DNA of 64,000 bases from Acholeplasma sp. (GTDB lineage: Bacteria > Bacillota_I > Bacilli_A > Acholeplasmatales > Acholeplasmataceae): assembly GCA_012838065.1 (NCBI GenBank), contig DUPY01000045.1, positions 1 to 64,000 on the forward strand, written 5' to 3'. The notes below the pieces were generated by a model that ran no database searches, was not told where the DNA came from, and saw nothing but the letters and a program-made list of their open reading frames with translations. Below, one piece after another: positions 26,228 through 30,425 of the stretch (the first letter of the stretch is position 1; each line of letters starts with the position of its first letter). The position numbers and the translations under genes are program-made.

Positions 26228-27537
26228 TGTATAAAAAATGGATTGAATTAGGTCTTAATAAAGGCTTTACAGATATTGAAATCTATGCAACACGCAATAA
26301 AAACTTTTCACTTTCTGTTTACCAACAAAAAGTGGATTCCTATGAAAAAAGTGATGTTGAAGTTGTAAAAGTAAAAGCAATTTATGATGGGAAAGCTGTT
26401 AACGCAAAATTTGAAAATCTATCAACAACAAATTTCGAATCTATCTTAGACCGTTTAATTGAAAATGCAAAAGCATTAACTGTTACAGAACCAGCTTTAA
26501 TTTTTGAAGGTTCAAAAGAATATCCAAAAGTCGATGAAGAATTGTTTGACTTTGATACTGTAGATAACAGTGAAAAGATTGAGTTGTTAATGGCGCTAGA
26601 AGAAGGTGTATTAGCATGCAGCGAAGTTGCGCAAGTGCAATCAACACAATACTCCGAGACATATAGTCAAACGGTTATTGTAAACTCTAAGGGATTAAAT
26701 CTTAAAAAACAATCATCGTATGCTATGGCATATGCGATGGGCGTCTTCCAACGAGGCGAAGACATTAAAACAGCATATGATATTAAAATAGCTAAGAAGT
26801 TTAGTGATTTTAATGTGGATGAAATGATTAAAAACACCATTCAAAAAGGTGTTGATAAATTAGGTGGTTTATCATTAAAATCTGGCCAATATCCAGTCGT
26901 ATTCTCAAAAGAAATGTTTGCACAAATTTTAAGTGTGTTTAGCTCAATCTTTACAGGTGAAGCTGCATACCGTAATCTAACTGCTTTAAAAGATAAAGTA
27001 GGTGAAAAGATTGCTGTGGAGTCATTCAATTTAATAGATGACCCTATGCACAAAGATGCAGTGTTTAAAACACCATTTGATGATGAAGGGGTAGCAACTA
27101 AACGTAACTACTTAATTGAAAAAGGTGTATTTAAAGGCTTTATCCATAACTTAAAAACAGCATCTATTTTCAATGTAGAGCCAACTGGTAATGGATTTTC
27201 TGGGTCAATTGCCCCAGCAAACCTCTACTTAGAACCTGGAACTAAGAGTTTTGATGAACTTATCAAAGACATTAAAGAAGGTGTTTTTATTACCGATTTA
27301 GTTGGTCTTCATGCAGGTGTTAAAACTGTAAGTGGTGAATTTAGTTTACAAGCTGGTGGGCGCATCATTAAAGATGGTAAATTAGATCACGCAGTCAAAA
27401 TGATTGTAGTATCAGGTAATTATTTCAACATGTTAAACAATGTGGTTGGTATTGCAAACGATATTGAGTTTTCAGTATTTGGAGCAAGCAGTCCAAGTGT
27501 TCATGTTGATGGATTGATGATCGGTGGGGAAGCATAA
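26227..27537 (+). CDS. pmbA: TldE/PmbA metalloprotease partner subunit
   Basis: A 436-aa TldE (PmbA), the non-catalytic partner that forms the protease chamber with TldD. It lacks the HEXXXH motif, as normal for TldE. It has the family features KVDSYEKSDVE near the N-terminus, YSETYSQTVIVNSKGL, SGQYPVVFSKEMFA, FDDEGVATKRNYLIEKG and the closing ASSPSVHVDGLMIGG. Its ATG shares bases with the tldD stop (TAATG), which supports one-to-one expression. It is the last gene of the operon; a terminator overlaps its stop. Confidence 0.94.
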   Translation: MYKKWIELGLNKGFTDIEIYATRNKNFSLSVYQQKVDSYEKSDVEVVKVKAIYDGKAVNAKFENLSTTNFESILDRLIENAKALTVTEPALIFEGSKEYPKVDEELFDFDTVDNSEKIELLMALEEGVLACSEVAQVQSTQYSETYSQTVIVNSKGLNLKKQSSYAMAYAMGVFQRGEDIKTAYDIKIAKKFSDFNVDEMIKNTIQKGVDKLGGLSLKSGQYPVVFSKEMFAQILSVFSSIFTGEAAYRNLTALKDKVGEKIAVESFNLIDDPMHKDAVFKTPFDDEGVATKRNYLIEKGVFKGFIHNLKTASIFNVEPTGNGFSGSIAPANLYLEPGTKSFDELIKDIKEGVFITDLVGLHAGVKTVSGEFSLQAGGRIIKDGKLDHAVKMIVVSGNYFNMLNNVVGIANDIEFSVFGASSPSVHVDGLMIGGEA

Positions 27538-27554
27538 GCTTCCCTTTTCTTTTT
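27527..27554 (+). terminator. intrinsic terminator of the ABC-tldDE operon
   Basis: A 7-bp stem (GGGAAGC with GCTTCCC), loop ATAA and a T-rich tail. The stem includes the end of pmbA. Confidence 0.88.
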
Positions 27555-27577: not shown

Positions 27578-27586
27578 TGTTATAAT
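27578..27586 (+). promoter_or_regulatory. extended -10 promoter of the mgtE operon
   Basis: TGTTATAAT matches TGN-TATAAT exactly. Transcription would start at about 27593, placing the leader ORF at the very 5' end of an untranslated leader of about 200 bases. Confidence 0.65.
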
Positions 27587-27612
27587 AGAACTAATGAAAG
27601 AGGTGAGATATT

Positions 27613-27720
27613 TTGAGTAGGATAGAAGAACCCGATAGTAAAAAGCGGTGCCAATTAACTAAAAAGACTTTATTATCATCCACAAGAACACTTAAAAGTA
27701 TCTTGCCGATATATTTTTAA
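27613..27720 (+). CDS. 35-residue leader peptide of mgtE with an EEPD motif
   Basis: A TTG start at 27613 lies 7 bases after GAGGTGA (27600-27606); the frame ends at TAA 27718-27720. The peptide opens with SRIEEPDSKKR: two acidic residues, proline and another acidic residue within the first eight codons. Acidic/proline runs near the N-terminus are known to destabilise translating ribosomes when Mg2+ is low (intrinsic ribosome destabilisation), and the Salmonella MgtL leader has a similar EPDP start. Located between a promoter and a terminator in front of a Mg2+ transporter, it is a good candidate sensor. Translation is inferred; the TTG start lowers confidence. Confidence 0.5.
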   Translation: MSRIEEPDSKKRCQLTKKTLLSSTRTLKSILPIYF

Positions 27721-27747
27721 GTTTACCAATAAGTCTAATTAGTTAAT

Positions 27748-27772
27748 AAGCGTCGTTTTCGATGTTTTTTTT
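27748..27772 (+). terminator. intrinsic terminator in the mgtE leader
   Basis: An 8-bp stem with two or three G-U pairs (AAGCGTCG at 27748-27755 with CGATGTTT at 27760-27767), a TTTT loop and a T8 run, just before the AAGGAGG of mgtE. A 9-base stretch just upstream (27739-27747) is fully complementary to 27654-27662 inside the leader ORF, which could give alternative folds. Confidence 0.65.
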
Positions 27773-27790
27773 AATTAGAAGGAGGAACTT

Positions 27791-29092
27791 ATGAAAAATT
27801 TAGTCTTACAAAATAACAAAAAGAAGTTAAATCAACTTATTAAAAAGATGCATCCTTACGATATTTTGGATGAGTTGAACACATTTACAGAAGATGAAAA
27901 GACGCGCTTTTATGAAATGCTTGATGAAAAGGAAGTTGCTCGTATTGTTGCGTATCTTGAGCCGGAAGATGCAGCATCGGTTATTGATAATTTTGAATTA
28001 GATAGCCAGCAAGAAATTATTGATCACATGGATTTGGATGATGCCGCGGATATATTCGTACACTTAGAAAATCAAGATGCTTTAATCGATACCGAAGAAA
28101 ATAAAGATATTAAAGAAATTTTGACATATGATGAAGATGAAGTAGGGGCACATATGTCGGATGCTTATATTACGTTACCAATCGATTTAGATGTTAAACA
28201 AGCAACTAAGAAAGTTATTAAAGAGGCTGGCGATATTGAAGATATTAATCACTTATACGTCATTGATGAAAACAATCAGTATGCCGGAGTTGTTGAGTTA
28301 AAAACGCTTATTAAGGCTAAAGAGCCTTTAACTGTACAAGATTTAATCCAACAACAACCCTATGTATTTGTTGATGATGATATTGAAGACGCTGTTCATA
28401 AAATTCAAAATTATGGCTTATATGCAATTGCTGTATTGAATCGCACTTTTGAGATTAAAGGAATTTTAACGGTTGATGATGCGATAGAAATTTATCATGA
28501 AGAAGCACTTGAAGACTATGAAAAACTAGCTGCATTACCAGACACACAAACTAAAGGTTTTTTTAAATCAGCAATTAAACGACTACCATGGTTACTTATG
28601 TTACTAGTTTTATCAATACCAATTGCACTTGCAACTAGTAGTTTCGAAGAAGTTATTGCATCTGTTGCAGTTTTAGCACTCTTCCAACCACTAATTTTAG
28701 ATGCTGGTGGTGACGTTGCAACTCAAACACTAGCAGTAACCCTTCGAATTTTAAATAAAGATGAAAAGAGTGCACTTAAAAATGGTACAAAAGAGCTTTT
28801 ATCAGGGGCGCTAAGTGGGTTATTACTTGGTGTAGCTGCAGCAGTAGTTTCGTATATTATTAGTTTACAAATGGGTGTTTTTGAGCCGTTTAATGTTGCG
28901 TTAATTGTAGGAATATCGCTTACACTTACCGTTATTGCTGGACCGTTTTTTGCATTGTTTATTCCAGTGATTTTAAATCGATTTAAAATTGACCCTGCAG
29001 TGGCATCTGGTCCATTTATTACAACACTTATTGACGTTACAAGTGTGTTTATATATTTTGGACTAGCAACATTTTTCTTGGGGGTGATTTAA
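27791..29092 (+). CDS. mgtE: MgtE-family magnesium transporter (first copy)
   Basis: A 433-aa Mg2+ channel/transporter. The N-terminal superhelical MgtE domain (about 1-110) has RIVAYLEPEDAASVIDNF and is strongly acidic. A CBS pair (about 115-245) that senses cytosolic Mg2+ follows, then five membrane helices from about 265. The pore segment KIDPAVASGPFITTLID carries the selectivity Asp. In the loop where MgtE proteins normally have GGN-x-GTQ, this copy reads AGGDVATQ. AAGGAGG precedes the ATG. Expression is probably set by the leader peptide and terminator upstream. A second, divergent copy starts one base after this one ends. Confidence 0.95.
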   Translation: MKNLVLQNNKKKLNQLIKKMHPYDILDELNTFTEDEKTRFYEMLDEKEVARIVAYLEPEDAASVIDNFELDSQQEIIDHMDLDDAADIFVHLENQDALIDTEENKDIKEILTYDEDEVGAHMSDAYITLPIDLDVKQATKKVIKEAGDIEDINHLYVIDENNQYAGVVELKTLIKAKEPLTVQDLIQQQPYVFVDDDIEDAVHKIQNYGLYAIAVLNRTFEIKGILTVDDAIEIYHEEALEDYEKLAALPDTQTKGFFKSAIKRLPWLLMLLVLSIPIALATSSFEEVIASVAVLALFQPLILDAGGDVATQTLAVTLRILNKDEKSALKNGTKELLSGALSGLLLGVAAAVVSYIISLQMGVFEPFNVALIVGISLTLTVIAGPFFALFIPVILNRFKIDPAVASGPFITTLIDVTSVFIYFGLATFFLGVI

Positions 29093-29093
29093 G

Positions 29094-30425
29094 ATGAAAG
29101 AATTTATTTTGCTAAACGACTCTCAACTTAGAAAAAGACTTGCTAAAATGCCTTCTTATGATATTGCTAAATTTATTGAAAATTCATCACCTGATATGCA
29201 AATGCGCATTATTAACTTAATGACATTACCAAAAACGATTGATGTCTTTATTGAATTACCAAAAGAAATTGCAAGACATTATTTTACTTTGTTAACTGAA
29301 GCACAAAAAGTTCAATTTTTATCTGGATTTGAAATGGATGAATTGAAAGTTTTTATTACAAGTTTTGATGAAGATATTCAACCGTATTTAATTGGACTAT
29401 TAAGTCAAAGAAAACAACAAATACTTAAACGCTTGATGAGTTATGATGATGAGTCGATTGCATCTCTTATGACAACAGAGTTTATGACGATTAATGAAGA
29501 TTTAAGTATTAAAGAAGCAACTGCATATGTAATAACTAATGTTAAAGATCATGATTTTATCGATGATATCTTCGTTGTAAACAATCAAGTGCTTAAAGGA
29601 AGTGTTGCACTTAAAGATTTAATTAGTGCTAGAGCAAATCAAACTCTGGATTCTATAACGTATAAAATTGATGAGTATTTGACGGTAGAAGATTCGATCT
29701 ATCAAGGATTTTTAAAGTTTAAAAACTATGGTAAAAACTCTTTACCTGTACTCGATATTAATCACCACATTTTAGGTATCGTAACGGCCGATGACATTCT
29801 AAATGAAATTGTTGAAGGACACGAAGAAGCCATTGAAAAAATAACAGCTGTCGGTGACTTTGATGAAGCATCATCACCAGTGAAACGTACTGTACAGCGC
29901 ATCCCATGGTTATTAGTATCGGTAGTCTTAAACTTAGTTATTGCCTTGTTCTTATCCATTTTTGAAGCAACAATTGCTGAAGTCGTAGCACTAATTTTAT
30001 TTCAACCAATGATTCTTGGTATGGCTGGTAATATTGGTACACAAGCGATTGCTGTGACAATCTTAAAATTAAATCAAGATGAACTAGAACACCAACATTT
30101 AATTAAACGACATGTGGCCAAGGAAATAGGTATTGGTTTTATTAATAGCCTATTGGTTGGTATTAGTGGGTTTCTTTTGTCACTAGTTATCTTAAGCCTT
30201 ATACAAGTAGGTATACAAGATCCAAAATTAGTTGCGGTAACGATTGGGTTGAGTCTTTTTGGAGCGATGATTATATCAACTGCAGCAGGTGTATTTATCC
30301 CATTATTCCTTGCAAAATTTAAAGTAGATCCTGCGGTTGCTTCAGGTCCAATTATTAGTACGATAAACGACTTGTTTGCGCTAATTGTCTATTTTGGAAT
30401 TGCAACGCTCGTTTTTATGATATAA
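29094..30425 (+). CDS. mgtE: MgtE-family magnesium transporter (second copy)
   Basis: A 443-aa MgtE with the same order of domains: an N-terminal helical domain (about 1-120), a CBS pair (about 125-255, with SLMTTEFMTINEDLSIKEA) and five membrane helices from about 275. It keeps the usual GMAGNIGTQAIAV motif and the pore segment KVDPAVASGPIISTIND. The first copy has Asp where this one has Asn in the GN motif, so the two may form a heterodimer or differ in ion handling. The N-terminal domain is shorter in acidic residues. The start is one base after the first copy stops; the ribosome binding site GGGGGTG lies in its end. Confidence 0.94.
   Translation: MKEFILLNDSQLRKRLAKMPSYDIAKFIENSSPDMQMRIINLMTLPKTIDVFIELPKEIARHYFTLLTEAQKVQFLSGFEMDELKVFITSFDEDIQPYLIGLLSQRKQQILKRLMSYDDESIASLMTTEFMTINEDLSIKEATAYVITNVKDHDFIDDIFVVNNQVLKGSVALKDLISARANQTLDSITYKIDEYLTVEDSIYQGFLKFKNYGKNSLPVLDINHHILGIVTADDILNEIVEGHEEAIEKITAVGDFDEASSPVKRTVQRIPWLLVSVVLNLVIALFLSIFEATIAEVVALILFQPMILGMAGNIGTQAIAVTILKLNQDELEHQHLIKRHVAKEIGIGFINSLLVGISGFLLSLVILSLIQVGIQDPKLVAVTIGLSLFGAMIISTAAGVFIPLFLAKFKVDPAVASGPIISTINDLFALIVYFGIATLVFMI

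Follow-up and report, generated by a model that had tools for sequence, protein, structure and literature searches.

In Gram-positive bacteria, mgtE typically stands under the control of an M-box riboswitch. This raises the question of how an mgtE gene is regulated where its leader carries no M-box, as is the case in an acholeplasma-like bacterium, a Mollicute with a genome of 1.18 Mb. The stretch of DNA analysed here (64,000 nucleotides on contig C29; referred to as the window) contains such a leader of ∼200 nt. A covariance search with the M-box model (RF00380) returned no match in the leader at E<=10, none in the window and none in the whole genome, in agreement with the original prediction, which had seen no M-box in the leader. 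When the other Rfam cis-regulatory families were searched, only two tRNAs matched in the window, and all matches to the leader were far under the cut-off.

The mgtE locus and its relatives

The locus comprises a pmbA-like gene with its own terminator, the leader, and the tandem genes mgtE1 and mgtE2 (Table 1). The extended -10 element, the GAGGTGA site, the 35-codon frame starting with TTG, the terminator and mgtE, from which the original prediction had been built, were all recovered at the positions predicted for them. No good -35 hexamer lies upstream of the extended -10 element, which is also absent from a scan for two-hexamer promoters. Judged from the position of this element, the leader transcript would start at about 27593. 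An ATG at this putative start opens an 8-codon frame (27594-27620; MKEVRYFE), which is not preceded by a Shine-Dalgarno (SD) sequence and overlaps the TTG of the leader ORF. The score of mgtE2 against TIGR00400 is 228.1 bits, under the cut-off of 232.75.

Table 1. Features of the mgtE leader and its surroundings in the window.
Feature	Position	Strand	Remarks
pmbA-like gene	end 27537	+	
Intrinsic terminator of the pmbA-like gene	27526-27545	+	separates the pmbA-like gene from the mgtE transcription unit
Putative extended -10 element	27578-27586	+	TGTTATAAT; TG-T-TATAAT
SD-like GAGGTGA	27600-27606	+	6 nt 5' of TTG 27613; within H1 left arm
H1 left arm	27602-27618	+	pairs with 27690-27707, 17 bp; masks leader SD and start codon
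Candidate leader ORF	27613-27720	+	35 codons, TTG start, TAA stop; MSRIEEPDSKKRCQLTKKTLLSSTRTLKSILPIYF
EEPD motif	27625-27636	+	leader-ORF codons 5-8
AT (antiterminator) left arm	27642-27670	+	inside leader ORF, ~codons 10-20; pairs with 27731-27759, 25 bp
H1 right arm	27690-27707	+	or else part of hairpin 27690-27722 inside AT
AT right arm	27731-27759	+	overlaps 5' half of the terminator stem
Intrinsic terminator T	27748-27774	+	stem 27748-27755/27760-27767, -7.1 kcal/mol, followed by U run
mgtE1 ribosome-binding site	27780-27788	+	AAGGAGGAA
mgtE1, Mg2+ channel/transporter	27791-29092	+	MgtE_N, CBS and MgtE domains (Pfam); TIGR00400 above cut-off
mgtE2, second MgtE paralogue, in tandem	29094-30425	+	Pfam MgtE above cut-off

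The closest relatives of MgtE1, with 58-60% identity, are four proteins that make up a supported sister group. Three of these four (L005, L006 and L007) have a full M-box with a terminator directly upstream of the gene, scoring 106-152 bits, and the fourth, L004, has no M-box upstream. Of 88 genomes across the family, only 3 contain M-boxes, and the genome studied here branches outside the M-box-bearing MgtE1 group. The leader may have replaced an M-box, or it may have arisen from a plain promoter. In those upstream regions of other mgtE genes of the family that were inspected by eye, the gene begins shortly after its promoter or after the preceding gene. A possible M-box remnant in the leader obtained no covariance score; by eye, there was only a short AGGTGAG string, which is also found at the 5' end of the L006 and L007 M-boxes.

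Several further observations concern mgtE genes and M-boxes in the relatives. The tandem arrangement of divergent MgtE paralogues, which are ∼33% identical, is kept across most of the family and is absent from all 29 small genomes (0.3-0.9 Mb) of genus g11. The pmbA-mgtE gene order is apparently shared by L055 (G015 C2:114740-115380), where inspection by eye reveals a short leader and no attenuator. Of the other two M-boxes of the family, one immediately precedes an additional mgtE gene, the third and a separate one (L037, G075 C3:74363-74525; gene at C3:72806-74131), and one is located 5' of an apparent P-type (MgtA-like) ATPase gene (L038, G009 C1:261008-261168).

The leader itself has no relative at the level of DNA, peptide or structure (covariance model) in 160 genomes of the order, nor in plasmids and viral contigs. 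For an alignment of leaders from relatives, which had been suggested as a check of the original prediction, no homologous leader was thus found in the 160 genomes, with the bacterium studied here being the sole species of its genus in the comparison set. Since these searches returned no homologous leader, there is also neither covariation nor conservation of the ORF or of EEPD to examine. BLAST matches to the leader across the order were short, AT-rich and at chance level, and a weak peptide match in G148 (E 0.05) proved to be antisense to an unrelated gene. A search for repeats or mobile copies within the genome matched only the leader itself, and a second hit of the covariance model in the genome was this self-complementary leader helix read on the other strand.

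Competing helices and the candidate leader ORF

Thermodynamic folding of the leader, performed on the single sequence under standard ionic conditions, revealed three mutually exclusive helices, H1, AT and T (Table 1). Since the 5' side of the terminator stem (27748-27767) is part of AT, the formation of AT precludes that of the terminator. The pairing between 27654-27662 and 27739-27747, pointed out in the original prediction, is exact and constitutes the middle of AT, which also supplies the alternative, terminator-blocking fold overlapped by the leader ORF that had been anticipated there. With -24.1 kcal/mol for the duplex between the right arm and the leader upstream of it (shuffle mean -12.0 kcal/mol), the energy of AT was reached by 1 of 2000 shuffled leaders and by none of 651 window segments. 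The duplex energy of H1 was matched in 12 of 2000 shuffles. A terminator equal to T was found neither in 300 shuffles of 27721-27790 nor in the 48 stretches of 70 nt located 5' of other genes in the window, and the leader as a whole folds better than its shuffles (z -2.34). Computationally, the leader thus possesses the mutually exclusive antiterminator and intrinsic terminator that characterise ribosome-mediated attenuators.

When the transcript is folded at increasing lengths without a ribosome, H1 is dominant at ends between 27710 and 27740 and remains favoured until ∼27745. At transcript ends from ∼27750 to 27775, AT is the more stable fold. Once 27779 has been transcribed, past the U run, H1 and the terminator win again. 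The barrier for nested refolding from H1 to AT, calculated with findpath, is ∼26 kcal/mol, which is an upper bound that ignores pseudoknotted intermediates.

The leader ORF spans the left arm of AT, so that an SD-preceded ORF overlaps the antiterminator, as in a ribosome-mediated attenuator. Its SD match is 7 nt long and its stop codon lies 10 nt 5' of the AT right arm. Shuffled leaders contain an ORF of 35 or more codons in 2.1% of cases; if the SD match must in addition reach 5 nt, a criterion chosen post hoc on data already seen, the fraction is 0.08%. The codon usage of the candidate ORF, which is not gene-like, speaks against translation: the codon log-odds are under those of all 910 in-frame 34-codon samples taken from genes of the window, and the codon adaptation of the ORF falls at the 0.5th percentile. 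Either constraint by RNA structure or a non-coding sequence could explain this. The helices heavily constrain the codons of the ORF, which means that the odd codon usage does not exclude translation, and it still serves as a warning.

Among the rare codons of the ORF are AGG at codon 3 (0.9 per 1000 in the window), CCC at codon 7 (1.2 per 1000 in the window) and ATA at codon 4. The start of the encoded peptide is unusual as well. Four consecutive D, E or P within residues 2-11 occur in none of 49 gene starts, and an acidic/proline run of the EEPD type at these residues was found at 3 of 1346 candidate starts followed by at least 30 open codons.

Predicted role of ribosome position and the possible signal

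The effect of a translating ribosome was modelled by blocking its footprint at each codon of the ORF and folding 27593-27770 or 27593-27775. Four footprint sizes, two temperatures and the two lengths were used, and the pattern was stable throughout. For P-site positions from codon 1 to codons 4-7, folding yields the antiterminator (predicted read-through, ON). From codons 6-8 to about codons 22-24, the terminator forms (predicted OFF). At codons 25-35, all settings give the antiterminator once more. When the P site holds the stop codon, AT or an intermediate results in most settings, and the terminator in two, both with one footprint. The first boundary between ON and OFF coincides with codons 5-8, i.e. 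EEPD, including the rare CCC at codon 7.

This map bears on two predictions made for the leader. Early loss of the ribosome at EEPD had been expected to favour read-through; the direction of the modelled switch agrees, and its boundary lies at the same codons. The second prediction, that a ribosome reaching 27720 lets the terminator form, is not supported by the folding, as AT re-forms there in most runs. Because AT returns at codons 25-35, complete translation of the ORF is not by itself enough for OFF. OFF is predicted to require either a ribosome over the AT left arm when the polymerase gets to the terminator or, without a ribosome, H1. Conversely, a ribosome lost or held at or just before EEPD is predicted to switch mgtE on.

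Taken together, the leader is likely a transcription attenuator of some kind. For the more specific reading, that the 5' leader of mgtE1-mgtE2 is a trp-type attenuator read by a ribosome on the short leader ORF, we consider the chances to be about even or somewhat better, which puts it ahead of every other explanation. According to this model, H1 would form in the absence of a ribosome once 27707 has been transcribed, burying the leader SD, the start codon and the left arm of AT. On kinetic grounds, AT would be too slow to displace H1, and the terminator would keep mgtE off. If a ribosome starts translation or is delayed within the first 5-6 codons, H1 would be blocked and 27642-27670 left free to form AT, turning mgtE on. 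A ribosome on codons 7-24 would cover the left arm of AT, and transcription would terminate. The position of EEPD, a motif that slows or drops ribosomes, and of the rare CCC on the boundary between ON and OFF makes impaired early elongation the likeliest input, and low Mg2+ would be a plausible cause, as in MgtL. Mg2+ is a candidate signal on indirect grounds, namely the MgtE encoded downstream, the M-boxes of the relatives and the rare four-residue motif.

An alternative is that the RNA senses Mg2+ or another ligand directly, as an unclassified riboswitch in which the ORF is incidental. Here, Mg2+ would stabilise an aptamer-like H1 with its enclosed hairpin and so lead to the terminator, and low Mg2+ would lead to AT. 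The competition between H1 and AT works in principle without a ribosome, with the switch at ∼27745, and the better-than-shuffled fold of the leader, the non-coding appearance of the ORF's codon usage and the direct Mg2+ riboswitches that control mgtE in the relatives are all consistent with such a sensor. However, a chance origin is improbable for the SD, start, length and end of the ORF, nothing in H1, a simple extended helix, points to a multi-helix aptamer, and there is no Rfam match. We therefore regard direct sensing as a possible but rather improbable explanation.

Another alternative attributes sensing to the nascent peptide, with EEPD dropping the ribosome at low Mg2+ in functional convergence with MgtL. 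This explanation overlaps with the ribosome-position attenuator, of which it is one form. Acidic motifs destabilise E. coli ribosomes within the first 30 residues (PMC11282234), and EEPD lies well inside this range, at residues 5-8; the leader peptide in this respect possesses the early acidic/proline motif of MgtL-type intrinsic ribosome destabilisation. In MgtL the ribosome is destabilised by an EPDP start, and D-P-E-E is the minimal EttA-dependent motif (PMC11282234); in Salmonella MgtQ, acidic residues act ahead of mgtB (PMC8092293). The position map also places the switch at the EEPD codons, and the genome encodes no EttA-type ABC-F protein above cut-off, with other ABC-F-like proteins being present. 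Yet the proposal concerns one four-residue motif in a single sequence, a ribosome stalled (not dropped) with P7-D8 in the P site mostly gives OFF in the folding, and the folding does not favour the proposed OFF state, in which the ribosome stands at the stop codon. L31 counters ribosome destabilisation in E. coli, and its presence in the genome likewise speaks against peptide-based sensing and counts against the ribosome-position attenuator as well. On balance, this form of sensing appears unlikely.

That the leader is an unregulated element, in which a weak terminator is accompanied by incidental AT-rich pairing or a former M-box leader has decayed, we judge to be quite improbable. The weakness of the terminator, the AT-rich stems, the AGGTGAG string shared with two M-boxes and the reliance on one sequence fit this explanation, but chance pairing rarely or never equalled AT and T in the shuffles, there is no trace of RF00380 even at E<=10, and no other use is apparent for a terminator placed in the leader of a transporter gene.

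Very unlikely is an attenuator that reads charged tRNA, i.e. Arg or Pro charging (compare Salmonella mgtP/mgtL and proline), in which a wait at AGG, ATA or CCC would hold the ribosome at codons 2-6 and cause read-through: AGG and CCC are rare in the window, a ribosome awaiting CCC has codon 6 in its P site and gives AT with the shorter footprints, and proline-responsive leaders are known before Mg2+ genes (PMC3641672), but the leader peptide contains no run of any single amino acid and the cognate tRNA-Pro(GGG) and tRNA-Arg(CCG) genes are present in an incomplete set of 19 recovered tRNAs. Adjacent tRNA genes for Ser(GGA), Arg(CCG) and Pro(GGG), which decode rare codons, were observed at G000 C57:804-1053; the Arg(CCG) and Pro(GGG) tRNAs of G000 would be able to read the CGG and CCC codons of the leader ORF.

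Comparison with known leaders

The ribosome-position attenuator proposed here functionally resembles several known systems. As in MgtL, the mgtA leader of Salmonella and E. coli, a short ORF with an acidic/proline start lies 5' of a Mg2+ transporter gene, and the progress of the ribosome selects the RNA fold such that early ribosome loss favours expression (PMC11282234), which for the present leader is a prediction. In contrast to MgtL, where termination is Rho-dependent, the terminator is intrinsic; EPDP occupies residues 2-5 in MgtL and EEPD residues 5-8 here; and the target of MgtL is mgtA, a P-type ATPase gene, whereas here it is mgtE, with no sequence relation. Nothing beyond the acidic/proline motif is shared, and the leader therefore does not belong to the MgtL family by descent.

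Ribosome position likewise governs alternative stems in mgtM/mgtP of the Salmonella mgtCBR leader (PMC3641672) and in MgtQ, and MgtQ of the Salmonella mgtB leader also has early Asp/Glu residues (PMC8092293). However, the Salmonella mgtM/mgtP leader has no intrinsic terminator and its signals include ATP and proline, and MgtQ acts on the translation of mgtB. With the M-boxes (RF00380) of L005, L006 and L007, the leader shares its place, i.e. a leader with an intrinsic terminator before mgtE, but there is no match in sequence or covariance, and an SD-preceded ORF overlaps the antiterminator.

As in trp-type attenuators, a protective early helix, an antiterminator and a terminator compete and would be chosen by ribosome position. 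The leader differs from these attenuators in the lack of a codon run, in having a transporter as its target, in an early helix that lies over the start site of its ORF, and in the predicted preference for read-through when a ribosome sits on the stop codon. The leader would function like a trp/MgtL-type attenuator, while being neither an M-box nor a homologue of MgtL.

Few regulators have been described in the Acholeplasma-type lineage. Here, an mgtE gene without an M-box is preceded by a different, well-formed candidate attenuator, in which an ORF with an acidic/proline start takes the central place. That a nascent peptide senses Mg2+ specifically in this lineage and acts on an intrinsic terminator, so that the logic of MgtL would have been reached convergently outside the enterobacteria, seems doubtful to us. 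If Mg2+ is the input, ribosome-based Mg2+ sensing would have arisen independently of the enterobacterial mgt leaders. With any other input, the leader would still be a compact candidate for a ribosome-position attenuator in front of a Mg2+ channel gene, with predictions that reach down to the level of single codons.
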